Below, one piece after another: positions 46,801-64,000 of a stretch of DNA of 64,000 nt (position 1 is the first letter of the stretch; every line of letters starts with the position of its first letter). Made by a program: the position numbers and the translations under genes. The stretch covers positions 726,059-790,058 of the forward strand of contig JAVKHP010000001.1 of assembly GCA_031459855.1 (NCBI GenBank). The letters run 5' to 3'. Source of the DNA: Armatimonadota bacterium. Its GTDB lineage: Bacteria; Sysuimicrobiota; Sysuimicrobiia; Sysuimicrobiales; Humicultoraceae. The notes under the pieces are model-generated. The model saw nothing but the letters and a program-made list of their open reading frames with translations, had not been told where the DNA came from and ran no database searches.

Positions 46801-48123
46801 ATGACCACAGCACAGGTCCTCGAGCAGGCCGCCGCGCGCGGCGTGCGGTTCGTACGGCTGCAGTTCACCGACATCCTGGGCGTCCTCAAGAACGTCGAGA
46901 TCCCCGTGGACGAGCTGGAGAAAGCGCTGAACAACGAGATCATGTTCGACGGCTCCTCGATCGAAGGGTTCGTGCGCATCGAGGAGTCGGACATGTACCT
47001 GATCCCCGACCCGGCCACGTTCGCCGTCTTCCCGTGGAAGGATCAGGAGGGGATCACGGCGCGCCTGATCTGCGACGTCTACACCGCCGACGGGGAACCC
47101 TTCGCCGGTGACCCGCGGTCGGTACTCAAGCGGGCCATCGCCGCCGCGTCGCAGCGGGGCTTCACCATGATGGCCGGACCGGAGTGCGAGTTCTTCCTCT
47201 TCCCCCTCGACGCCAGCGGCCAGCCCGTCCTGCAGACGCACGACCGTGCCGGGTACTTCGACCTGGCGCCGGTCGACAAGGGCGAGGAGGCCCGGGCCGA
47301 CATGGTCACGGCGCTGTCGGCCATGGGGTTCGAGGTGGAAGCCGCCCACCACGAGGTGGCGCCGGGGCAGCACGAGATCGACTTCCGGTACGCCGACGTG
47401 CTGCGCACCGCCGACAACGTGGCGACGTTCCGGTTCGTGGTGCGCACCATCGCCAGGCGTCACGGCCTGCACGCCACGTTCATGCCCAAGCCCCTGGCCG
47501 GCATCAACGGCTCGGGCATGCACACCCACCAGTCGCTCTACCGCGGTGGCACCAACGCCTTCTACGACCCGGACGGCCCCTATCAGCTGAGCGCGGTCTG
47601 CCTGCACTACACCGGTGGGCTGCTGGCCCACGCCCGGGGCATGACCGCGGTCACCAACCCCCTGGTGAACTCCTACAAGCGGCTGGTGCCGGGCTACGAG
47701 GCGCCGGTCTACATCGCGTGGGCCGAGCGCAACCGCTCGCCGCTGGTGCGCATCCCCGCGGCGCGGGGCCCCGCCACCCGCGTGGAGCTGCGGATGCCCG
47801 ATCCCTCCTGCAACCCGTACCTGGCCCTGGCCGTCATGCTGGCCGCCGGGCTCGACGGCATCGACCGGCGGCTGGACCCGGGGCCACCGCTGAACCGCAA
47901 CATCTACGCCATGACCGAGGACGAGCTGGACCAGCTGGGCATCCAGGTGCTGCCCCGCAACCTGGACGAGGCCATGCGGGAGCTGCTGGCCGACGAGGTG
48001 GTCTGCGCGACCCTGGGCGGGCACATCGTCGACCACCTGCGCCAGGCCAAGCGGCTGGAGTGGCGGGAGTACGTCAGCCGGGTCCACCCGTGGGAGGTCG
48101 ATCGCTACCTGACGACGTTCTGA
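46801..48123 (+). CDS. glnA: glutamine synthetase, type I alpha
   Basis: 440 residues, the short GSI-alpha form of Bacillus and Thermotoga. The block MFDGSSIEGFVRIEESDM contains the arginine used for feedback regulation in that group. Active-site blocks are GPECEFFLF, VAPGQHEIDFRY, FMPKPLAGINGSGMHTHQSL, NSYKRLVPGYEAPVYIAWAERNRS (split) and RVELRMPDPSCNPYLA. The adenylylation-site NLYDLP motif is absent, so control is by feedback or a GlnR-like protein, not adenylylation. AGGAGG precedes the ATG. The 3' end overlaps the convergent nucleotidyltransferase gene by 50 bases. Confidence 0.96.
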   Translation: MTTAQVLEQAAARGVRFVRLQFTDILGVLKNVEIPVDELEKALNNEIMFDGSSIEGFVRIEESDMYLIPDPATFAVFPWKDQEGITARLICDVYTADGEPFAGDPRSVLKRAIAAASQRGFTMMAGPECEFFLFPLDASGQPVLQTHDRAGYFDLAPVDKGEEARADMVTALSAMGFEVEAAHHEVAPGQHEIDFRYADVLRTADNVATFRFVVRTIARRHGLHATFMPKPLAGINGSGMHTHQSLYRGGTNAFYDPDGPYQLSAVCLHYTGGLLAHARGMTAVTNPLVNSYKRLVPGYEAPVYIAWAERNRSPLVRIPAARGPATRVELRMPDPSCNPYLALAVMLAAGLDGIDRRLDPGPPLNRNIYAMTEDELDQLGIQVLPRNLDEAMRELLADEVVCATLGGHIVDHLRQAKRLEWREYVSRVHPWEVDRYLTTF

Positions 48124-48448
48124 GGTCTTCCCAGACCGTCACCCCGTCGCGGACCGCCTCGGCCACCGTCGAGATCTCCCGGGCCTTTCGCGCAAACTCT
48201 TCGGGCGTGTAACAGAGCGGCTCCAGCTCCACGTCGAGGTCCCAGAGATCCAGGACCGCCCGGAGCCGAGCGGTCCACGCCACGCCCGCGAATGCCGGCG
48301 AGACGAAGAGCAGGTCATAGTCGCTGTCGTCCAGCTCGTCGCCTCGCGCCCGGGAACCAAAGAGGATGACCCGCACCAGGGGCAGCCGTGCGTGCACCCG
48401 GCGCAGAAACCGCTCTAGTCTCGGCCGGTCAACGCCGAGGTGACCCAC
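48074..48448 (-). CDS. MNT-type minimal nucleotidyltransferase (antitoxin-like)
   Basis: 124 residues. The nucleotidyltransferase motif is ILFGSRARGDELDDSDYDLLFV, with both metal-binding aspartates, and a third acidic position lies in LDVELEPL. In MNT/HEPN pairs this enzyme modifies and neutralises the HEPN ribonuclease. GTG start at 48448, inside the end of the HEPN frame. The C-terminus runs 50 bases into glnA on the other strand. The HEPN partner is broken (next entry). Confidence 0.85.
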   Translation of the reverse strand: MGHLGVDRPRLERFLRRVHARLPLVRVILFGSRARGDELDDSDYDLLFVSPAFAGVAWTARLRAVLDLWDLDVELEPLCYTPEEFARKAREISTVAEAVRDGVTVWEDLRTSSGSDRPPTGGPG

Positions 48449-48804
48449 CGACGTACGCGTTCGGCCGCCTGCAGCAACCCGGAGGCCTTGCGTTCATCGT
48501 AGTTCTCCGTAGGCACCCCGTTGGCCGCGTCGGGATAGCGCGAGGCGGCCTACTCCGGATTGAGCAGCCGCAGGTCGCTCATGACCTCCTCCGGCACCTC
48601 CAGCGTACGGCCCAGTTCGACCAGGTTGGGCGTTCGGGGTGGCATGGTCCGCCGGAGTTCGATGATCGCGCCTTTCAGCCACTTCGCGGTCGCCTGGTGG
48701 CATGCGAACGCGGCCGCGAAGTAGAACCCTGCCTGCGCGCTGGCCCGCGCGTGCGCCATGTCGGCGTCGGCCTGTGCCAACCACCGCCGTGCTTCTTCAC
48801 GCAT
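48415..48804 (-). pseudogene. HEPN-domain gene interrupted by an amber codon
   Basis: From ATG 48804 the frame gives 84 residues of a HEPN protein (EEARRWLAQADADMAHARAS, FYFAAAFACHQATAKWLKGAIIEL) and stops at TAG 48552-48550 right after LLNPE. The same frame then continues with AASRYPDAANGVPTENYDE and LLQAAERVRRWV to a TAG at 48417, exactly the missing HEPN C-terminus. NPEY is normal there, so a tyrosine codon has become TAG. The truncated product lacks the RYPD region near the ribonuclease site. Either a recent pseudogene or a sequence error. Confidence 0.8.
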
Positions 48805-51829: not shown

Positions 51830-52804
51830 ATGGTGCCCACACGGGCTCACCCGACCGGCACGCGCCCAAAGACCGCGGGCATGCGCTCCACCACTGCCGA
51901 CGACCCCACACCGCACGCACGCGCGACGGCCCCACGACGCCAGTTCCTGCAGACCCTGGGTGCCGGCGCGGCCACACTGCTGGCGCTGGACGTGCTGGAG
52001 AGCCTCGCGGCTGCGCCCGCAGCGGCCGCCCCACCGCCTGCCGCGCCGGCTGTGCAGGCCACGACGCCGGGCCCGCCGCCGGCTGGGGGGCCCGACCCCG
52101 CGCCGCAGGACGTGCTGGTCCGCATGCGGGCCGACCTGGAGCGGGCCCTGCGCAAGCCCGCCACCCAGCGCCAGTGGGTGATGGTCATCGACCTGCGCAA
52201 GTGCGTCGGGTGCAGCGCGTGCACCATCGCCTGCGTCGCGGAGAACAAGCTGCCACCGGGCGTGGTCTACCGCCCCGTCGTCGAGGAAGAGCTCGGTACC
52301 TACCCCCACGTGACGCGACGGTTCCTCCCGCGGCCGTGCATGCAGTGCGACAACCCGCCCTGCGTGCCCGTCTGCCCGGTGGCGGCCACGTACAAGCGCC
52401 CTGACGGCATCGTGGCCATCGACTACGACCGGTGCATCGGGTGCCGGTACTGTCTCGTGGCCTGTCCGTACAACGCGCGGACCTTCGACGCCGGCGAGCG
52501 GTACACCGACGGGACCCCCGAGACGAGCCCGGTGGAGCGGCTGCCGGCGTTCGAGTACGGCCAGCGCCGCACGCGCGAGCACGACGCCTCGCCCGTGGGC
52601 AACGCCCGCAAGTGCCACTTCTGCACCCACCGGCTGGAGGCCGGACTGCTGCCGGCCTGCGTCAGCACCTGCATCGGCCGGGCCACGTTCTTCGGCGATG
52701 CCAGCGACCCGGACAGCCTGGTCAGCGAACTCGTGGCCAAGCCCAACGTCATGCGGCTGAAGGAAGAGCTGGGCACTCAGCCGCGCGTCTACTACCTGCT
52801 GTGA
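51830..52804 (+). CDS. TtrB-like 4Fe-4S electron-transfer subunit
   Basis: 324 residues. A Tat signal ([19 protein letters not shown]) follows a 35-residue leader; a Pro/Ala linker extends to about residue 100. The ferredoxin domain has four clusters: [43 protein letters not shown] and [20 protein letters not shown]. The order Fe-S subunit, NrfD subunit, catalytic subunit is that of tetrathionate reductase ttrBCA. GGGAGGAGGA precedes the ATG. A TtrB-type protein with its own Tat signal is usual for this group. Confidence 0.85.
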
Positions 52805-52814
52805 GGGAGATCCC

Positions 52815-54044
52815 ATGAAGCGCGCGCTGTACGTGCTGTGGGCTGTCGCCTTCGCCCTGGGCGCCTGGGGCGTGTGGGAACGGCTGACCCTGGGCCACCG
52901 CCTGGCGGGGTACGGCTCCTACGTGGTGTGGGGGCTCTGGGTCTCGGCCTACATCTACCTGGTGGGGCTCTCGGCGGGGGCATTCCTCCTGTCGTCGCTC
53001 GTGTACGTCTTCGGCCTCCAGCGCCTGGAACGCATCGGCAAGCTGGCGCTCTTCACCGCCATCGTGACGCTCCTGGTGGCCCTGCTGTCCATCTGGTTCG
53101 ACCTGGGGCACATGGCGCGGTTCTACCGGGTGTTCACCTCGCCCAACTTCAGCTCCATGATGGCCTGGATGATCTGGCTATACACCGCCTACTTCGTCCT
53201 GCTGCTGGCCGAAGCGTACCTGGCGTTCCGCCCCGACCTGGTCCGGTGGAGCCGCGATGCGGCCCGCACCCCCATCCAGCGCGTGGTCGCCCGCTGGCTC
53301 ACGCTCGGGCGCACCGCCCTGGACCCGGCCACGGTGGCCGCCGAGGGCCGCGCCGTCAGGATCCTGGGCACCATCGGTGTACCGCTCGCCGTGGCCTTCC
53401 ACGGGGGCGTCGGTGCCCTCTTCGCCACCGTCAGCGCCAAGCTCTACTGGCACCAGTCCATCGTGCCCATCCTGTTCCTGACCGGCGCCCTGGTCTCGGG
53501 CGGAGGGTTGCTCACGGCCGTCGTCGCGTTCGCGTGGGCCCCGCGCGACGACGCCTGGCGGCAGCTCACGGCGCTGCTCGGCCGCCTGCTCCTGGTGCTG
53601 GTCCTGGTCGACGTCCTCCTGGAGTGGGCCGAGTTCTCGATCCCGCTCTGGTACGGCACGAGCCCCGAAGGCCACTTGCTGCGCCAGGTGCTGTGGGGGC
53701 CGTACTGGTGGGTCTTCTGGATCGTGCACCTGGGACTGGGCACCGCGATCCCCACGATTCTACTGGTCGCCCGCGGCCGTGACCCCATCGCGGTGGGGAC
53801 GGCCGGCCTGCTGGTCGCGGCCACCTTCATGAGCGTGCGTCTGAACGTGGTGATCCCCGCACAGCTGGAACCGGCGCTGCGCGGCCTGGAGCGGGCGTTC
53901 GTCGGGCCGCGCCTGGTGTTCCAGTACGCGCCGACGGTGCACGAATGGCTGGTGACGCTCTTCGTGCTGACCGTCGGGGCCGCGCTGTTCTGGCTGGGAG
54001 CCAGGATCCTCCCGCTGATCGACGCAAAGGAGGTCGTGCGATGA
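52815..54044 (+). CDS. TtrC/NrfD-like membrane subunit
   Basis: 409 residues with about nine to ten membrane helices: [61 protein letters not shown] and [20 protein letters not shown], typical of NrfD-family quinol-binding subunits. It starts 10 bases after the Fe-S subunit (GAGGGAG site). Its stop overlaps the ATG of the catalytic subunit. It delivers quinol electrons to the periplasmic partners. Confidence 0.88.
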
Positions 54045-57000
54045 GCGAGCGCTCGCTGTCCGTCGGCTCGCCTGGCCGCCTGCGGGTCACCCGGCGGCAG
54101 GTCCTCAAGGCCACCGCGCTGGCCGGCAGCGGGACGCTGCTGGGCCGGATGCCGGGCCTGGTCGGCAGGCTCCAGCAGGCCGGCGCCCAGCCGCCTGATG
54201 TCCGCTATCCCCTCGCCCGGCCGGAGAACGTCCTCTACTCGGCGTGTCTGGGCTGCAACACCGGCTGCGGCATCAAGGTGGGCATCGTCGACGGGGTGGC
54301 CGCCAAGATCGACGGGAACCCCTACAACCCGTTCACGCTGGTACCCCACCTGCCCTACGCCACCGCGCCCGCCCAGGCCGTGGGCGTGGAGGGCGCCATT
54401 TGCCCCAAGGGCCAGGCGGGCCTGCTGACAGTCTACGACCCGTTCCGCATCCGCCGGGTGCTCAAGCGCGCCGGCCCCCGAGGCTCCAACCGCTGGCGCA
54501 CCATCCCCTTCGAGCAGGCGGTGACCGAGATCGTGGAGGGCGGGCGGCTGTTCGCGGACATCGGCGAAGATCGCCACGTCCCCGGCCTGCGCGAGGTGTG
54601 GGCGCTGCGGGACCCCAAGGTCGCCAAGGCCATGGACGCCGCCGTCGGCGCGATCCGCGCCGAGAAGGATCCGGCGAAGAAGCGGGCGCTGGTCGAGCAG
54701 TTCAAGCGTGATTTCCGCGAGCACCTCCACACGCTGATCGACCCCGACCATCCCGACCTGGGGCCCAAGAACAACCAGTTCCTGTACGTCTTCGGACGGC
54801 AGAAGGCAGGGCGCGCCGAGTTCGTGCGGCGGTTCGTGGTCGACAGCTTCGGCTCGGTCAACTTCCACGGCCACACCACCGTCTGCCAGGGGTCGCTCTA
54901 CTTCGCCTGCAAGGCCATCAGCGAGCAGTACCAGCTCGACCCCAAGAGCGGCAAGATGAAGTGGACGGGCGGGGCCAAGGCCTACTGGCAGGGCGACGCG
55001 GAAGGCGCCGAGTTCATGATCTTCGTGGGAGCCTCGCCCTTCGAGGGCAACTACGGGCCGTCCAACCGCGTCCCGCGGATCACCGAGGGCCTGGTCAGCG
55101 GTCGGCTGAAGTTCGCCGTGATCGACCCGCGGCTCTCCAAGACCGCCGCCAAGGCCTGGCGGTGGGTGCCGGCACGGCCCGGCACCGAGGCGGCGTTCGC
55201 GCTGGGCATGATGCGGTGGATCATGGAGCACCGCCGCTTCGACGAGCGCTTCCTGCGCAACGCCAACAAGGCGGCGGCCGCGGCCGACGGCGAGCCGTCG
55301 TGGACCAACGCCACCTGGCTGGTGAAGCTCGACCACGGCAAGCCCGGCGCGTTCCTGCGCGGCTCCGACCTGGGGATCAAGCCCGCCACGCGCACCGCCA
55401 CGGTGAAGGACAAGACCGTGGAGTACGCGTTCGATCCCTTCGTGGTGCTCAGCGGCGGCCAGCCCGTGCTGGTCGACCCCTACGACGAGCAGACGCCGGT
55501 CGAGGGCGACCTCTTCGTCGCGGGCACCGTCGGCGGGCACCAGGTCAAGAGCGCCCTGCAGCTCCTGTGGGAGGAGGCTGCGGCGCGCACCATCGAGCAG
55601 TGGGCCGAGATCTGCGGGGTCCGCCCCGCGGACATCGTCGACCTCGCCCGGGAGTTCACCAGCCACGGCAAGAAGGCCGTGGCCGACATCCACCGCGGCG
55701 TCAGCCAGCACACCAACGGGTTCTACAACGTGGTGGCCTGGATGAGCCTGAACGCGCTGATCGGGAACATCGACTGGAAGGGCGGCTCGGCCTACGCCAA
55801 GGTCTACGACATCAGCGGCAGCAAGGAGGGCCAGCCCTTCCCGCTGGCCGACCTGCACCCGAAGAAGACCACGGCGTTCGGCATCTCGCTGATCCGCCAC
55901 GAGACCACGTACGAGGAGTCGACGCTCTTCGCCGGCTACCCCGCCCGGCGGCCCTGGTACCCGCTGGCGTCGGACATCTACCAGGAGATCGTGCCCTCGC
56001 TGGGCGACGGGTATCCGTATCCCATCAAGATCGCCTACCTGTACATGGGCTCGCCGGTCTACGCCCTCCCCGGGGGCCACACGAACATCGAGATCCTCAA
56101 GGACCCCGAGAAGCTGCCGCTGTTCATCGCGTGCGACATCACCATCGGCGAGACCTCCATGTACGCCGACTACATCATCCCCGACCTCTCGTACCTGGAG
56201 CGGTGGGAGTTCCACGGCTCGCACCCCAACATGACCGTCAAGGTGCAGCCGGTCCGGCAGCCCGTCATCCCACCCATTCCCGAGACCGTCCGCGTCTTCG
56301 GCGAGGAGATGCCGGCCTGCCACGAGGCGTTCTTCCTGGCCTGCGCCGAGAAGCTCGGCCTGCCCGGCTTCGGCAAGGATGGGTTCGGCCCGGGGATGGA
56401 CTTCCGGCGCCCGGAGGACTTCTACCTGAAGCAGGTGGCCAACCTCGCCGCGGGCGAGAAGCCCGGCGACGCCGTGCCCGACGCCGACGACGCCGAGGTC
56501 CGGCTCTTCCTCGAGGCGCGCCGGCACCTGCCCGGGACCGTGTTCGACCCCGAGAAGTGGAAGGCCGCAGTCGGCGACGCGTGGTGGCGCAAGGTCGTCT
56601 ACGTCCTCAACCGCGGCGGCCGGTTCCAGGACCACGCGAAGGCGTACAAAGGAGCGCAGCTCGGCAACCCCTACGGCAAGCTGTTCAACCTCTACCAGGA
56701 GAAGACCGCCAAGACCAAGGACTCGATGACGGGCAAGCCCTTCCCCGGCCTGGCGACGTACCTGCCCGGCCCGGTGGACGTGACCGGCAAGCCCATCGAC
56801 GACGCGGCGGCAGGATACGACCTGCGCCTGATCACCTACCGGGAGGTGACCCACACCAAGTCGCGCACGGCCAGCAACTACTGGCTGCTGGCACTGTTGC
56901 CCGAGAACAGCGTGCTGGTGTCTCGCCAAGACGCCGAGCGCCTGGGGCTGCGCGACGGGGACAGCGTGCGGGTGACCTCGGCCAGTAACCCCGAGGGCAT

Positions 57001-57295
57001 TTGGGACCTCGGCAACGGGCAGACCAAGCCCATGGTCGGACGCGTCAGGATCACCGAGGGCCTGCGCCCCGGCGTGGTGGCGTTCTCGCTGGGCCACGGC
57101 CACTGGGCCTACGGCGCCACCGACGTGGTCATCGACGGGAAGACGGTCCGGGGTGATGCGCGCCGCGGCCGCGGGATCCACGCCAACGCCGCGATGCGCC
57201 TGGACCCGGTGTTGAAGAACACGTGCCTGAGCGATCCGGTGGGCGCCAGTGCGGTCTTCTACGATACGCAGGTGAAGCTGGTGAAGAGCGCATGA
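54041..57295 (+). CDS. TtrA-like molybdopterin oxidoreductase (tetrathionate/selenate reductase group)
   Basis: 1084 residues. A Tat-type signal ([16 protein letters not shown]) is followed by 4Fe-4S cysteines 69, 72, 76 and 121, and Cys282 (TTVCQGS) as probable molybdenum ligand. Other blocks are [34 protein letters not shown] and [15 protein letters not shown]. Length and the ttrBCA gene order point to tetrathionate reductase or the related SrdA/arsenate-type enzymes; the exact acceptor cannot be read from sequence. The stop overlaps the ATG of the DUF411 gene. It contains no internal stop, unlike the PsrA-like gene. Confidence 0.85.
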
Positions 57296-57870
57296 CCGCC
57301 CGGGACGGGCACGCTGGAGCAGCCGGCCGGGGACGCGTTCGGGGTCAGCGCCGGGTGGGCCGACGCCGGGGCCCGCGGTGGGGAGCGTGGGTGGCGGGTG
57401 CTGCGGGGCTGGTGGCTGCGGTCGCGGCGCTGGTGCTGCTGGTGACGCGCCCGCCGACGGTCCCGGCGCCCGCGCCGGCTGCCCATCCCTCGGGCGCCGC
57501 GCCCTCGGCGACGCTGGTCCTCTACCAGCCGCCCACCTGAGCGTGCTGCGCCAGGTACGCAGCGTACCTGGCAGCGTCGGGGGTCCCGACGCAGGCGATC
57601 ACGACCGACGCGCTGGACGAGGTCAAGCACCGCCACCGGGTCCCCCATGAGCTCGCGAGCTGTCACACCGCGGTGGCAGGACGGTACTTCGTTGAAGGTC
57701 ACGTGCCCGTGGCCGCCATCGCGCGGTTGCTGCGCGAGCAGCCGGCGATCCGGGGCATTGCGTTGCCGGGCATGCCGCCCGGGTCGCCGGGCATGGACGG
57801 GGTCCAGGCCGGGCCGCTGATCGTCTACGCGGTATCGGACGCCGGGATCCGCGAGTTCGCGCGGTTCTGA
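57292..57870 (+). CDS. candidate selenoprotein: membrane-anchored DUF411 (CopG-like) protein read through UGA at codon 83
   Basis: ATG 57292 overlaps the TtrA stop. One frame runs to TGA 57868 with a single internal TGA at 57538. Read through, it gives 192 residues: a membrane anchor (about 33-53), a Pro/Ala linker, then DUF411. Its motif normally reads YKSPTCGCC; here it is YQPPT-U-ACC, so UGA falls on the first motif cysteine. The rest is intact: [12 protein letters not shown] with Cys124, VEGHVP and [14 protein letters not shown]411 proteins bind copper or other metals through these cysteines. A hairpin starts five bases after the UGA. Without recoding the domain would be lost. Confidence 0.75.
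57538..57575 (+). promoter_or_regulatory. candidate bacterial SECIS element after the DUF411 UGA
   Basis: UGA 57538-57540 is followed by a stem-loop: CCAGGTAC (57551-57558) pairs perfectly with GTACCTGG (57564-57571) around a GCAGC loop. GCTG (57545-57548) pairs with CAGC (57572-57575) below a two-base bulge. UGA to loop is 18 bases, within the range I recall for bacterial SECIS elements, and the loop begins with G. The hairpin lies wholly in coding sequence, as bacterial SECIS elements do. Confidence 0.6.
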
Positions 57871-59313: not shown

Positions 59314-62300
59314 ATGGGAACCGACGATGCGACCCTGTCGGCCAGGGCGGCCACCACGGAGGGAGCGGCACCGGTGCCCGATCGCGACGATCGCTGCGCT
59401 GAACGCGACCAGGCCGCCGATAACGACGTCGTACCTCCGCCCGCGCGCCTGCGTCGCCGGGAGTTCCTCCAGCAGGCCGGCACGCTGGCCGGGGGCGCGG
59501 TCCTGGCGCAGGCCCTGCCGCTCCAGCTCCTGCAGACGCTGTCCACCGTCACCAACCCGCTGGAGGCCTACCCCGACCGCGCCTGGGAACGCGTCTACCG
59601 CGACCAGTACCGCTATGACAGCAGCTTCACGTTCGTCTGCTCGCCCAACGACACCCACCACTGCCGGCTGCGGGCCTTCGTGCGCAACGGCGTCATTGTC
59701 CGCATCGAGCAGAACTACGACGTCGACCGCTACCGCGATCTGTACGGCAACCGCGCCACGCCGGCGTGGAACCCCCGGGGGTGCCTGAAGGGCTACACGT
59801 TTCACCGGCGGGTCTACGGCCCGTACCGGCTCCGCTACCCGATGATCCGGCGGGGCTGGAAGCAGTGGGCCGACGACGGGTACCCCGAGCTCACCGACGA
59901 GCTGCGCCGTCGCTACCGCTTCGACAGCCGGGGACAGGACACGTTCGTCCGCGTCTCCTGGGACGACGCGTACGCGTACGTGGCGTCGGCGTTCATCGCC
60001 ATCGCGCGCCGGTACAGCGGCGAGGAGGGCGCCAGGCGCCTGCTGGCCCAGGGCTATCCGCCCGAGATGGTCGAGGCGATGCACGGCGCCGGCGTGCGCA
60101 CCTTCAAGTTCCGCGGCGGCATGGGGCTGCTGGGCGTGATCGGCAAGTACGGCCTGTGGCGGGCCGCCAACATGATGGCACTGCTGGACGCCCACGTGCG
60201 CGGCGTCGGCCCCGACGAGGCCCTGGGCGCGCGCAAGTGGAGCAACTACACCTGGCACGGCGACCAGGCGCCCGGGATGCCCTTCGTGCACGGCCTGCAG
60301 ACCTCCGACGTGGACTTCAACGAGCTGCGGCACGCCCGGCTGCACATCCAGGTCGGCAAGAACCTGGTCGAGAACAAGATGCCCGAGAGCCACTTCTTCA
60401 TCGAGCTGATGGAGCGGGGGGCCACGATCGTCGTCATCACCCCCGAGTACAGCCCGCCCGCCACCAAGGCCGACTACTGGATGCCGATCCGCCCCCAGAC
60501 CGACGCCGCGCTGTTCCTGGGCATCACGAAACTCCTGATGGACCGCGGCTGGTACGACGACGCCTTCGTGCGGCAGTTCACCGACTTCCCGTTGATCGTC
60601 CGGACCGACACCCTGACGCGCCTGCGGGCCCACGAGGTCTTCCCCGACTACCGGTCCGGGCTGGCACCCGACGGACCCAGCGTCCGACGGCAGAACCTGC
60701 AGCCCGACCAGTACGCGCGGCTGGGCGACTTCGTGGTGTTCGACAAGACCACCGGGCGGCTGCGCGCCATCACCCGCGACGACGTCGGGCAGCGCATGAC
60801 CGCCAAGGGTATCGCGCCAGCGTTGCGCTGGCGCGGCAGGGTGCGGCTGACGGACGGCAGCGAGGTCGAGTGCCTTACGCTGTGGGAAGCCTACCGCGAC
60901 CACCTGCGGGACTACGACCTGGACACCGTCGCCGAGATCACCCACGTGCCCACGCGGATGATTCAGCGCCTGGCCCGCGACATCGCCACCCGCAAGCCGG
61001 TGGCCATCCACATCGGCGAGGGCATCAACCACTGGTTCCACGCCACGCTGGCCAACCGGGCCTTCTACCTGCCGTTGATGCTCACGGGCAACATCGGCGT
61101 CCCGGGCGCCGGCTGCCATACCTGGGCCGGGAACTACAAGGCCGGCATCTTCCAGGGGTCGCCGTGGACCGGCCCGGGCATCACGGGCTGGCTGTTCGAA
61201 GACCCGTTCCAGCCGACGCTGGACCCCAACGCCCACGGCAAGACCATCAAGGTCCGCAAGTACCTCAAGGACGAGGAACCGGCCTACTGGGACCACGGTG
61301 ACGTGCCCCTGGTCGTCACCACCCCCAAGGCCGGCCGGAAGGTCTTCACCGGCCAGACCCACATGCCCACACCCACCAAGGTCATCTGGTACAACAACGT
61401 CAACCTCATCAACAACGCCAAGTGGGCCTACGGCGTCATCAAGAACGTCAACCCCCGGGTCGAGCTCATCATCAACCAGGACGTGGAGATGACGGCCTCG
61501 GCCGAGTACGCCGACGTGATCCTCCCGGCCAACACCTGGGTGGAGTTCCAGTCGTGGGAGCTCACGGCGTCGTGCAGCAACCCCTTCCTCCAGATCTGGA
61601 AGGGCGGCATCCGGCCCCTGTTCGACACCAAGGACGACGCCCTGATCATCGCCGAGGTGGCGGCCAAGCTGGCGGTCAAGACCGGCGACCGCCGGTTCCG
61701 GGACTACTTCCGCTTCATCCTCGACGGCCGCCCCGAGGTCTACATCCAGCGCATTCTGGACAGCAGCACCTCCACCGTGGGCTACCGCTTCGCGGACATC
61801 GTGGCCGGCAGGTACGGCGAGCCCGGCGCGGCCCTCATGCTCTTCCGCACCTACCCCCGGGTGCCGTTCTACGAACAGGTGCACGACAGCGAGCCGTTCT
61901 ACACCGACACCGGCCGGCTCAACGCCTATTGCGACATCCCCGAGGCCATCGAGTACGGTGAGAACTTCGTGGTCCACCGCGAGGGGCCCGAGGCGACGCC
62001 CTACCTGCCCAACGTCATCGTGTCCAGCAACCCGCTGGTGCGGCCCGAGGACTACGGCATCCCGCTCGACGCCCTCCACTGGGACCTGCGGACGGTGCGC
62101 AACGTGAAGCTGCCCTGGACCAGGGTCAAAGAGACCACCAACCCCCTGCGCCAGCGCGGCTACCGGTTCTACTGCCTGACCCCCAAGACCCGGCACCGCG
62201 TCCACTCGTCGTGGAGCAGCACCGACTGGAACCTGATCTGGGACTCCAACTTCGGCGACCCGTACCGGCTCGACCGGCGCACGCCGGGCGTGGGCGAGCA

Positions 62301-62889
62301 CCAGCTGCACATGCACCCGCAGGCGGCTCGCGACCTGGGCATCAACGACGGCGACTACGTCTACGTCGACGCCTTCGCCGCGGACCGGCCCTACCTCGGG
62401 TGGACCCCCGCCGACCCCTTCTACCGCGTGGCACGGTGCATGGTGCGCGTCAAGTACAATCCCGCCTACCCCTACGACGTCGTGATGATGAAGCACGCGC
62501 CGTTCATCGCCACCGAGAAGTCGGTGCGCGCCCACGAGACCCGCCGTGACGGCCTGGCGCAGTCGGCCGACACGGGCTACCAGGCCAACCTCCGCTACGG
62601 CAGCCAGCAGTCGGTGACCCGCGACTGGCTGATGCCCATGCACCAGACCGACACCCTGTTCCACAAGGCCAAGGGAGCGGTGGCGTTCGTCTTCGGGGGT
62701 GAGGCCGACAACCACGCGGTCAACACGGTGCCCAAGGAGACCCTGGTGAAGATCACCAAGGCCGAAGACGGTGGCCTGGGCGGCCGGGGCCTGTGGGAGC
62801 CGGCGCGCACGGGCCACACGCCGGGGCGCGAGCGCCCGTTCATGCGGCGCTACCTGGCCGGCCGGCTCGTCACCATCTCGAGGGGCTGA
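59314..62889 (+). CDS. NXR/Nar-type molybdenum oxidoreductase alpha subunit, Tat-exported
   Basis: 1191 residues, type II DMSO-reductase family. A Tat motif RRREFLQQAGTLAGGAVL near residue 48 predicts export. The Fe-S site reads Cys109, Asp113, Cys117 and Cys157, with aspartate where NarG has a cysteine. WHGDQAPG supplies Asp317, the expected molybdenum ligand of the nitrate reductase/nitrite oxidoreductase branch. Other blocks are QVGKNLVENKMPESHFF, GEGINHWFHATLANRAFYLPLM (split) and YADVILPANTWVEFQSWEL. The beta subunit downstream closely resembles Nitrospira/anammox NxrB, so a periplasmic nitrite oxidoreductase or nitrate reductase is likely. Direction and substrate remain open. Confidence 0.85.
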   Translation: MGTDDATLSARAATTEGAAPVPDRDDRCAERDQAADNDVVPPPARLRRREFLQQAGTLAGGAVLAQALPLQLLQTLSTVTNPLEAYPDRAWERVYRDQYRYDSSFTFVCSPNDTHHCRLRAFVRNGVIVRIEQNYDVDRYRDLYGNRATPAWNPRGCLKGYTFHRRVYGPYRLRYPMIRRGWKQWADDGYPELTDELRRRYRFDSRGQDTFVRVSWDDAYAYVASAFIAIARRYSGEEGARRLLAQGYPPEMVEAMHGAGVRTFKFRGGMGLLGVIGKYGLWRAANMMALLDAHVRGVGPDEALGARKWSNYTWHGDQAPGMPFVHGLQTSDVDFNELRHARLHIQVGKNLVENKMPESHFFIELMERGATIVVITPEYSPPATKADYWMPIRPQTDAALFLGITKLLMDRGWYDDAFVRQFTDFPLIVRTDTLTRLRAHEVFPDYRSGLAPDGPSVRRQNLQPDQYARLGDFVVFDKTTGRLRAITRDDVGQRMTAKGIAPALRWRGRVRLTDGSEVECLTLWEAYRDHLRDYDLDTVAEITHVPTRMIQRLARDIATRKPVAIHIGEGINHWFHATLANRAFYLPLMLTGNIGVPGAGCHTWAGNYKAGIFQGSPWTGPGITGWLFEDPFQPTLDPNAHGKTIKVRKYLKDEEPAYWDHGDVPLVVTTPKAGRKVFTGQTHMPTPTKVIWYNNVNLINNAKWAYGVIKNVNPRVELIINQDVEMTASAEYADVILPANTWVEFQSWELTASCSNPFLQIWKGGIRPLFDTKDDALIIAEVAAKLAVKTGDRRFRDYFRFILDGRPEVYIQRILDSSTSTVGYRFADIVAGRYGEPGAALMLFRTYPRVPFYEQVHDSEPFYTDTGRLNAYCDIPEAIEYGENFVVHREGPEATPYLPNVIVSSNPLVRPEDYGIPLDALHWDLRTVRNVKLPWTRVKETTNPLRQRGYRFYCLTPKTRHRVHSSWSSTDWNLIWDSNFGDPYRLDRRTPGVGEHQLHMHPQAARDLGINDGDYVYVDAFAADRPYLGWTPADPFYRVARCMVRVKYNPAYPYDVVMMKHAPFIATEKSVRAHETRRDGLAQSADTGYQANLRYGSQQSVTRDWLMPMHQTDTLFHKAKGAVAFVFGGEADNHAVNTVPKETLVKITKAEDGGLGGRGLWEPARTGHTPGRERPFMRRYLAGRLVTISRG

Positions 62890-62895
62890 GCGACG

Positions 62896-63225
62896 GTGCC
62901 CGACAAACCCTTCGAGCCCGACGACCCGCTGGCGCTGGTTGGCGTGGCGGTCGACGCCGACGCCGCGGCGGCGGAAGCCATGGCCAGGTGCCTGGTGGAG
63001 GAGTACCTGCGGGAGGGGTGGACGCCCGACCGCCTGCTGGCGCTGTGCCGCAACCCGTTCTACCAGGCGCTCCACGCCATCTACCGGGAGCGCGGGGAGG
63101 ACGGCGTGCAGGCGTTGATCGCCGAGGCCGCGGCCACCTGGGGCGTCTGGCGCACCACGGTGGGCCCGGTGCGCCCCCACCGGCCCGGCACACCCGATGC
63201 GGCGGGAGGTCGCGACGATGCCTGA
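62896..63225 (+). CDS. small protein between nxr-like alpha and beta genes
   Basis: 109 residues, GTG start six bases after the alpha stop. Its end overlaps the beta start by eight bases, so it is translated with them. Soluble and helical: LALVGVAVDADAAAAEAMARCLVEEYL, TPDRLLALCRNPFYQALHAIYRERG and VQALIAEAAATWGVW. No metal motif or signal peptide. By position it may be a maturation chaperone or accessory subunit, but it does not show the TorD/NarJ signature I would expect. Confidence 0.65.
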   Translation: MPDKPFEPDDPLALVGVAVDADAAAAEAMARCLVEEYLREGWTPDRLLALCRNPFYQALHAIYRERGEDGVQALIAEAAATWGVWRTTVGPVRPHRPGTPDAAGGRDDA

Positions 63226-64000
63226 GGTCTACAACTGGCAGCTGGGCCGCAAAATGACCTACCGCTTCCCGGAGCGGCACAGCCGCTGGCAGTTCGCGGC
63301 GGTCTTCAACATCAACCGGTGCATCGCGTGCCAGACGTGCACCATGGCGTGCAAGAGCACCTGGACCCACGCCCGCGGCCAGGAGTACATGTGGTGGAAC
63401 AACGTGGAGACCAAGCCCTACGGCGGCTACCCGCACTTCTGGGACGTCAAGACCCTGGAGTTGCTGGAGCAGGCCAACCCGGGCGGGCAGACCTGGACGC
63501 TGGCCGGGCGGGACGGCCGGCGGGCACCCTACGGGGTCTACGGCGGGAAGACGATCTTCGAGGCGGCACCGCGGGGCCAGGACTACGTGGGCTACCTGCC
63601 GACCGACGACGAGTGGCGGGCGCCCAACCTGTACGAGGACACCTCCACCGCCTACCCCACGGGGCCGGGCCGCTACCACCCCACCGGCGAGACGCTACCC
63701 CAGCACCGCACCTGGTTCTTCTACCTGCAGCGGATCTGCAACCACTGCACCTATCCGGCGTGTCTGGCGGCCTGTCCCCGCAACGCCATCTACAAGCGCC
63801 CCGAGGACGGCATCGTCCTCATCGACCAGCAACGGTGCCGCGGGTATCGCAAGTGCGTCGAAGCGTGCCCGTACAAGAAACCGATGTTCAACGCGTTCAC
63901 CCGGGTGGCCGAGAAGTGCATCGCGTGCTACCCGCGCATCGAAGGCCGGGACCCCCTCCACCCCGGCGTGCCCATCGAGGCCCGGTGCATGGCAGCGTGC
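63218..64000 (+). CDS. NXR/Nar-type beta subunit, 4Fe-4S protein (C-terminus beyond window)
   Basis: 261 codons visible. It starts PEVYNWQLGRKMTYRFPERH and continues NINRCIACQTCTMACKSTW and WWNNVETKPYGGYP, a start I recognise from Nitrospira/anammox nitrite oxidoreductase beta subunits. Later clusters are CNHCTYPACLAACPRNAIYKRPEDG, CRGYRKCVEACPYKKP (Tyr replaces a cysteine, as Trp does in the NarH 3Fe-4S site), CIACYPRIEG and ARCMAAC. It relays electrons from the alpha subunit. No signal of its own, so it is exported with alpha. ATG behind GGGAGG. Confidence 0.92.
   Translation, partial: MPEVYNWQLGRKMTYRFPERHSRWQFAAVFNINRCIACQTCTMACKSTWTHARGQEYMWWNNVETKPYGGYPHFWDVKTLELLEQANPGGQTWTLAGRDGRRAPYGVYGGKTIFEAAPRGQDYVGYLPTDDEWRAPNLYEDTSTAYPTGPGRYHPTGETLPQHRTWFFYLQRICNHCTYPACLAACPRNAIYKRPEDGIVLIDQQRCRGYRKCVEACPYKKPMFNAFTRVAEKCIACYPRIEGRDPLHPGVPIEARCMAAC

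Follow-up and report, generated by a model that had tools for sequence, protein, structure and literature searches.

Introduction

CopG-type proteins, which belong to the DUF411 family (PF04214), are copper proteins reported to have a tetranuclear copper cluster held by a CxCC motif and two methionine residues, a part in anaerobic copper resistance and a proposed oxidation of Cu(I) (PMC7558416, PMC8456105); the methionines are given as Cu ligands in PMC7558416. Selenocysteine (Sec) has been reported in other metal-linked bacterial proteins, namely the SO_0444 family Cu/Zn efflux transporter (with a UxC motif), CopZ-like 2Fe-2S proteins and a putative mercuric transport protein (PMC13188914, Table 1). 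Here we describe a DUF411 gene in which the first cysteine codon of the CxCC motif is replaced by an in-frame TGA. Sec insertion at this codon is very likely, and the gene was found to belong to a recurrent class of such genes.

Results

The DUF411 Gene and Its In-Frame TGA

The whole stretch of DNA analysed, 64,000 nucleotides in length, is referred to below as the window. A reading made earlier from the letters of the window, without database searches (the sequence-only reading), had proposed a single DUF411 frame broken only by a TGA at 57538, on the first cysteine of the CxCC motif and with the remainder of the domain in frame behind it. The frame was confirmed at 57292-57870: it runs from the ATG at 57292 to a TGA at 57868-57870, and its sole interruption is the TGA at 57538-57540. 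The features of the gene are the following.

57292..57870, + strand: Sec-DUF411 (CopG-like) gene, 192 residues, with UGA as putative Sec at codon 83; PF04214, E = 2.8e-24
57385..57447, + strand: hydrophobic N-terminal segment, a probable membrane anchor or signal, judged from the sequence and from relatives with signal peptides or lipoprotein-like N-termini
57538..57540, + strand: in-frame TGA, inferred Sec codon, position 1 of CxCC; TGA or Cys in relatives, never TAA or TAG
57544..57549, + strand: the remaining two Cys codons of U-A-C-C, invariant among 43 aligned proteins
57661..57669, + strand: Cys-His-Thr motif of DUF411, invariant in the alignment of 43 proteins
57772..57795, + strand: Met-PPGSPG-Met motif with two conserved methionines; Met89 and Met96 of the domain are invariant in the alignment

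The Pfam match downstream of the TGA covers the complete domain and scored 85 bits against a curated cut-off of 27, which bears out the in-frame continuation of DUF411; no NCBIfam model matched the protein. The placement of the TGA on the first cysteine of the motif was likewise upheld, since the invariant Cys-His-Thr lies 41 codons after the first CxCC codon, in the window gene as in its relatives, and the alignment with P. aeruginosa CopG has no gaps across this stretch. TGA also serves as the true terminator of the DUF411 gene and ends the TtrA-like gene preceding it; UGA is therefore not generally reassigned.

The AlphaFold model of the DUF411 domain had a pLDDT of 96.8. Its best structural match was P. 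aeruginosa CopG (6wje/6wis; TM 0.89, E 1e-11, 36% identity), followed by thioredoxin/glutaredoxin-like folds with E values above 0.005. DUF411 is CopG, a copper-cluster protein, and by this structural analogy (TM 0.89) the metal- or redox-binding function suggested by the sequence-only reading can be given a more specific, if still putative, form. The window protein retains the other motif cysteines, the Cys-His pair and both methionines. Taken together with the homology to CopG, these residues would place Sec at a position that in CopG is a copper ligand or a redox residue, and copper may thus be bound by Sec.

Selenocysteine Machinery of the Host

The host genome (3.19 Mb, 97.7% complete) was searched for selA, selB, selC and selD, and all four were found. 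The tRNA-Sec (selC) scored 66 bits and has the anticodon TCA; SelB scored 349 bits and is adjoined by SelA (E 1e-141). SelD (388 bits; C1:1149867-1150790, L166) contains one in-frame TGA of its own, which we take to mark the known Sec form of SelD, itself a selenoprotein. With tRNA-Sec, SelA, SelB and SelD present, decoding of UGA as Sec is expected in the host cell. An FdhA-type selenoprotein was also searched for in the host genome and was not found.

Recurrence of TGA at the Same Codon

A total of 84,980 bacterial and archaeal genomes were scanned for the pattern TGA-NNN-TGY-TGY at fixed spacing to Lys/Arg, Pro and Cys-His-Thr. The scan gave 105 places with TGA at the first codon of CxCC, and 102 of these are DUF411 genes, which continue with the EGHVP and GMPxGSPGM blocks, protein conservation running on to the C-terminus; the other three (L095, L096 and L103) are chance matches. 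Such recurrence, about 100 genes with TGA at one codon, far exceeds chance. Two of the 102, both from Chloroflexi (L030 and L049), have an additional downstream stop or frameshift and are possibly decaying copies. According to the record titles the carriers belong to about ten phyla and comprise Chloroflexota, Acidobacteriota, Rokubacteria/Methylomirabilota, Actinomycetota (Acidimicrobiia), Gemmatimonadota, Desulfuromonadales, Deltaproteobacteria labelled Myxococcota, SAR324, Campylobacterota (three Helicobacter species) and Pseudomonadota. Parendozoicomonas callyspongiae and Deltaproteobacteria bacterium IMCC39146 are examples of cultured carriers. No match to the same TGA pattern was obtained in viral contigs. 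DUF411 is common on plasmids, mostly of enterobacteria, where it is annotated as ordinary DUF411 proteins.

The specificity of the codon was examined in two surveys with an open first position. When 350 sampled Chloroflexota were searched at the protein level, no more than seven matches came up (three with TGA, four without a stop), and a pattern survey was therefore used instead: with T[AG]N at this codon, 396 Anaerolineae genomes yielded 33 matches, made up of 14 TGA and 19 TGC/TGT. The open-codon survey of 396 Acidobacteriota genomes gave two TGA, 11 TGC and nothing else. Over the 792 sampled Anaerolineae and Acidobacteriota genomes this amounts to 16 TGA and 30 Cys codons, with no TAA, TAG, TGG or Tyr codon at the first position of CxCC. 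The absence of TAA and TAG argues against an origin by decay, since a decaying stop would not avoid them.

SelB was detected in 45 of the 47 TGA-DUF411 genomes tested (44 over the cut-off, and one, G084, split at a contig end), in six of seven additional ones and in G041, a genome of the window's own order. None of the three genomes with chance matches to the pattern had SelB over the cut-off. The SelB search gave no match in three TGA-DUF411 genomes (G058, G065 and G711), a lack possibly due to the incompleteness of these sampled assemblies. Within Anaerolineae SelB is equally common in genomes with Cys-DUF411, nearly all those tested having it, so that there it is necessary but does not discriminate between the two forms.

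Relatives and Exchange between Sec and Cys

Among 43 genomes of the phylum a matching DUF411 was found in seven, the window genome included. G041, from another family of the same order, has TGA at the identical codon and is a second, independent case, and G034, G035, G036 and G040 have Cys at this column; the homologues thus show Cys or UGA and no other stop, an outcome that supports the sequence-only reading. At the UGA codon, TGC or TGT is found in G035, G036 and G040, whose proteins are closest to that of the window. In the Cys-type gene of G034 (L022) the CGCC portion is out of frame with the domain, through a frameshift or an assembly error.

A tree was built from 131 proteins (99 Sec and 32 Cys), and many of its forks are open owing to the short alignment. 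Sec and Cys forms interdigitate in it, with 14 label changes, at least three of which are forced by well-supported branches. The window protein clusters, at a support of 96, with Cys proteins from the order to which it belongs, which indicates an exchange of Sec and Cys within that group, gain and loss being indistinguishable from the tree. Two placements disagree with the record labels (L061/L071): the DUF411 of a contig labelled Halieaceae falls in the Chloroflexota branch, and that of another labelled Gemmatimonadetes falls in the Acidimicrobiia branch, through either gene transfer or misbinned contigs.

The Hairpin Following the UGA

A stem-loop lies behind the UGA.

57545..57575, + strand: SECIS-like stem-loop with a perfect 10 bp core stem (57550-57572) and the loop CAG at 57560-57562

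The core hairpin (57550-57572) consists of GCCAGGTACG, the CAG loop and CGTACCTGGC, forming ten perfect pairs, and three more pairs across a bulge lengthen it to 57545-57575. The hairpin reported earlier at these positions is therefore real, with the correction that its loop begins 19 nt past the UGA and not 18. An equally long stem occurs near about 2.3% of random TGA in the window (25/1094), so that the hairpin by itself is modest evidence. The published bSECIS model has a loop of 3-9 nt starting 16-37 nt after the UGA, a stem of 4-16 bp, an MFE of -7.5 or lower and a G as first or second loop base (PMC13188914). When the window hairpin was compared with this model, its spacing of 19 nt, its 10 bp stem and its energy lay within the limits, but the CAG loop departs from the loop-G rule as folded and agrees with it only if the closing G-C pair opens.

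The class was compared using 59 non-redundant UGA genes and 26 Cys genes. Perfect hairpins of at least 5 bp with a loop starting 13-30 nt after the codon were present in 47/59 UGA genes versus 10/26 Cys genes (Fisher p 3e-4), and the first or second loop base was a G in 39 of those 47 hairpins versus five of the ten from Cys genes; the Helicobacter UGA-DUF411 genes have a GGUC loop. The published loose bSECIS criteria did not separate the two sets (32/59 versus 15/26 pass). Folding of the 45 nt after the UGA was slightly stronger than expected from synonymous shuffles (mean z -0.42), an effect too weak to be used alone, and covariation in the common hairpin gave small, not decisive z values against column shuffles. 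The hairpin following the UGA is accordingly supportive of the Sec reading and not decisive, a weaker case than the sequence-only reading made of it.

Genomic Context

The DUF411 gene follows a row of genes resembling a tetrathionate or polysulfide reductase operon.

51830..52804, + strand: 4Fe-4S electron-transfer subunit (TtrB/DsrO-like, Tat signal)
52815..54044, + strand: NrfD/PsrC-like membrane subunit (PF03916, E 9e-38)
54041..57295, + strand: TtrA-like molybdopterin oxidoreductase with a Tat signal; the DUF411 gene follows it directly

The best model for the TtrA-like protein was TtrA, at 489 bits and thus below the cut-off of 1750 bits. The ATG of DUF411 overlaps the stop codon of the TtrA-like gene (ATGA), which in turn overlaps the NrfD gene in the same manner; these overlaps make translational coupling probable. 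In the Cys relatives G035, G036 and G040 DUF411 is found with a molybdoenzyme operon, and G041 has a TtrA-like fragment about 6 kb away from it. In the window's order DUF411 is in or near an operon with genes for molybdopterin oxidoreductase, 4Fe-4S and NrfD proteins together with accessory genes. The neighbourhood survey outside this order found diverse neighbours and no common operon partner, which limits the link with the reductase to the window's order; DUF411 proteins of other phyla have signal peptides or lipoprotein-like N-termini. On the simplest view, an exported copper/redox protein was recruited to the reductase operon in this order. From the gene order the protein may function with the TtrA-like reductase, alongside which the sequence-only reading has it made, but the case is weaker than stated there.

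Other genes in the vicinity may be recorded. A second molybdoenzyme operon follows directly (59314-64000), in which the alpha subunit is DMSO-reductase-type-II/NarG-like (TIGR03479, 360 bits, below the cut-off) and an iron-sulfur beta subunit starts at 63197 and runs past the end of the window. On the minus strand, small adjacent genes at 48074-48448 and 48550-48804 resemble, by eye, an MNT nucleotidyltransferase/HEPN toxin-antitoxin pair.

Discussion

The explanation that we prefer, with a probability of about 0.9 taken as a whole, is that of a Sec-containing CopG/DUF411 protein with a copper/redox role, co-translated with a reductase-like complex. SelB and tRNA-Sec would read the UGA of codon 83 as Sec, giving U-x-C-C instead of C-x-C-C in a membrane-anchored and probably extracytoplasmic protein. 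By homology with CopG, U-x-C-C and the two conserved methionines would bind copper and cycle redox, with the selenolate probably at a copper-ligand or redox position. The window gene would be one member of a widespread family in which Sec and Cys have repeatedly been swapped, and is probably co-translated with the tetrathionate/polysulfide-reductase-like complex. The frame, its conservation, the specificity for TGA, the Sec machinery and the fold are results of computation; we infer the actual insertion of Sec and, from homology and gene order, copper binding, the copper/redox role within the Ttr-like operon and a function with the reductase.

Three other accounts of the TGA were weighed. It could be a real stop, leaving either a pseudogene or a deliberately short peptide with a non-translated remnant; TGA is a normal terminator in the host genome, the DUF411 gene's own end included, and the adjacent hairpin could be a chance occurrence at the frequency given above. 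This is very improbable given that about 100 genes share the exact codon, always as TGA and never as TAA or TAG in the two sampled surveys, with full conservation downstream and SelB almost always in the carrier genomes. Equally improbable is that an ordinary Cys-DUF411 gene was misread at 57538 in sequencing or assembly. The TGC or TGT of the closest relatives would suit it, but the error would need to have hit a Sec-prone codon, yielded TGA, and done so in a genome with Sec machinery and beside a 10 bp stem; G041 of the same order also has TGA, as do about 100 other genes of the class. Other recodings of UGA occur in bacteria, and by this precedent UGA might be reassigned throughout the genome (as in codes 4 and 25), or readthrough might insert a different amino acid, Trp or Gly for instance. 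We consider this extremely improbable in view of the TGA terminators of the DUF411 and TtrA-like genes, the anticodon TCA of the tRNA-Sec and the surveys, in which TGG (Trp) was absent and only Cys, the usual partner of Sec, was found beside TGA.

A further alternative opposes the functional half of the preferred explanation and leaves the Sec reading intact: the protein could be a general periplasmic thiol/selenol oxidoreductase that serves the Ttr-like reductase, for example in the reduction of polysulfide or tetrathionate adducts, and carries no copper in vivo. Its thioredoxin-like fold would agree with such a role, as would the molybdoenzyme, iron-sulfur and NrfD set near DUF411 in both Sec and Cys relatives of the order, and most selenoproteins are thiol oxidoreductases (PMC13188914). 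We hold it to be unlikely, though a serious contender, as the other motif cysteines and both copper-site methionines are kept, the solved DUF411 protein is a copper-cluster protein, and such an operon was not seen outside the window's order. Going beyond the preferred explanation, it may tentatively be suggested, with rather less than even confidence, that Sec coordinates the copper of a CopG-type cluster directly through its selenolate, making a copper-selenium cluster, in mostly uncultured bacteria of about ten phyla, coupled in this lineage to a sulfur-oxyanion reductase.

An inventory of 119 families of prokaryotic selenoproteins from 2026 (PMC13188914) contains neither DUF411/PF04214 nor a UxCC motif, and a search of open-access papers found nothing joining DUF411 with selenoproteins or, in a relevant way, CopG with selenium. 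Sec-DUF411 is a probable selenoprotein family that we did not find in published inventories, by which the prokaryotic selenoproteome would gain a family of about 100 genes in public genomes. Automatic annotation would cut these genes short at the UGA. The use of selenium would be tied to the handling of copper, at the site where the Cys form is reported to hold a tetranuclear copper cluster in a crystal structure. With this structure of the Cys version the reason for the choice of Sec is directly testable through matched Sec and Cys proteins, and the repeated exchange supplies natural pairs for the comparison.

Among known selenoproteins, the SO_0444 family, the CopZ-like proteins and the mercuric transport protein likewise have Sec for Cys in a metal-binding or redox motif, but belong to different families. 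The KCU-star/DUF466 selenoprotein of Epsilonproteobacteria was likewise a DUF family recognised through comparison of UGA and Cys forms together with a hairpin, and it also occurs in Helicobacter relatives; it differs in its C-terminal Sec and unrelated domain (PMC4607533). The Sec-containing SelD shares with the window gene an in-frame TGA in the same genome, but is an enzyme of the Sec pathway with an unrelated fold. CopG of P. aeruginosa (PF04214; 6wis/6wje) and CutG of Rhodobacter capsulatus resemble the window protein in domain, fold, CxCC spacing, Cys-His-Thr and GMPxGSPGM motifs and in being exported. The window protein differs from both in that the first Cys of its CxCC motif is encoded by UGA and in that its gene lies beside a Ttr-like reductase and not beside copper-efflux genes.
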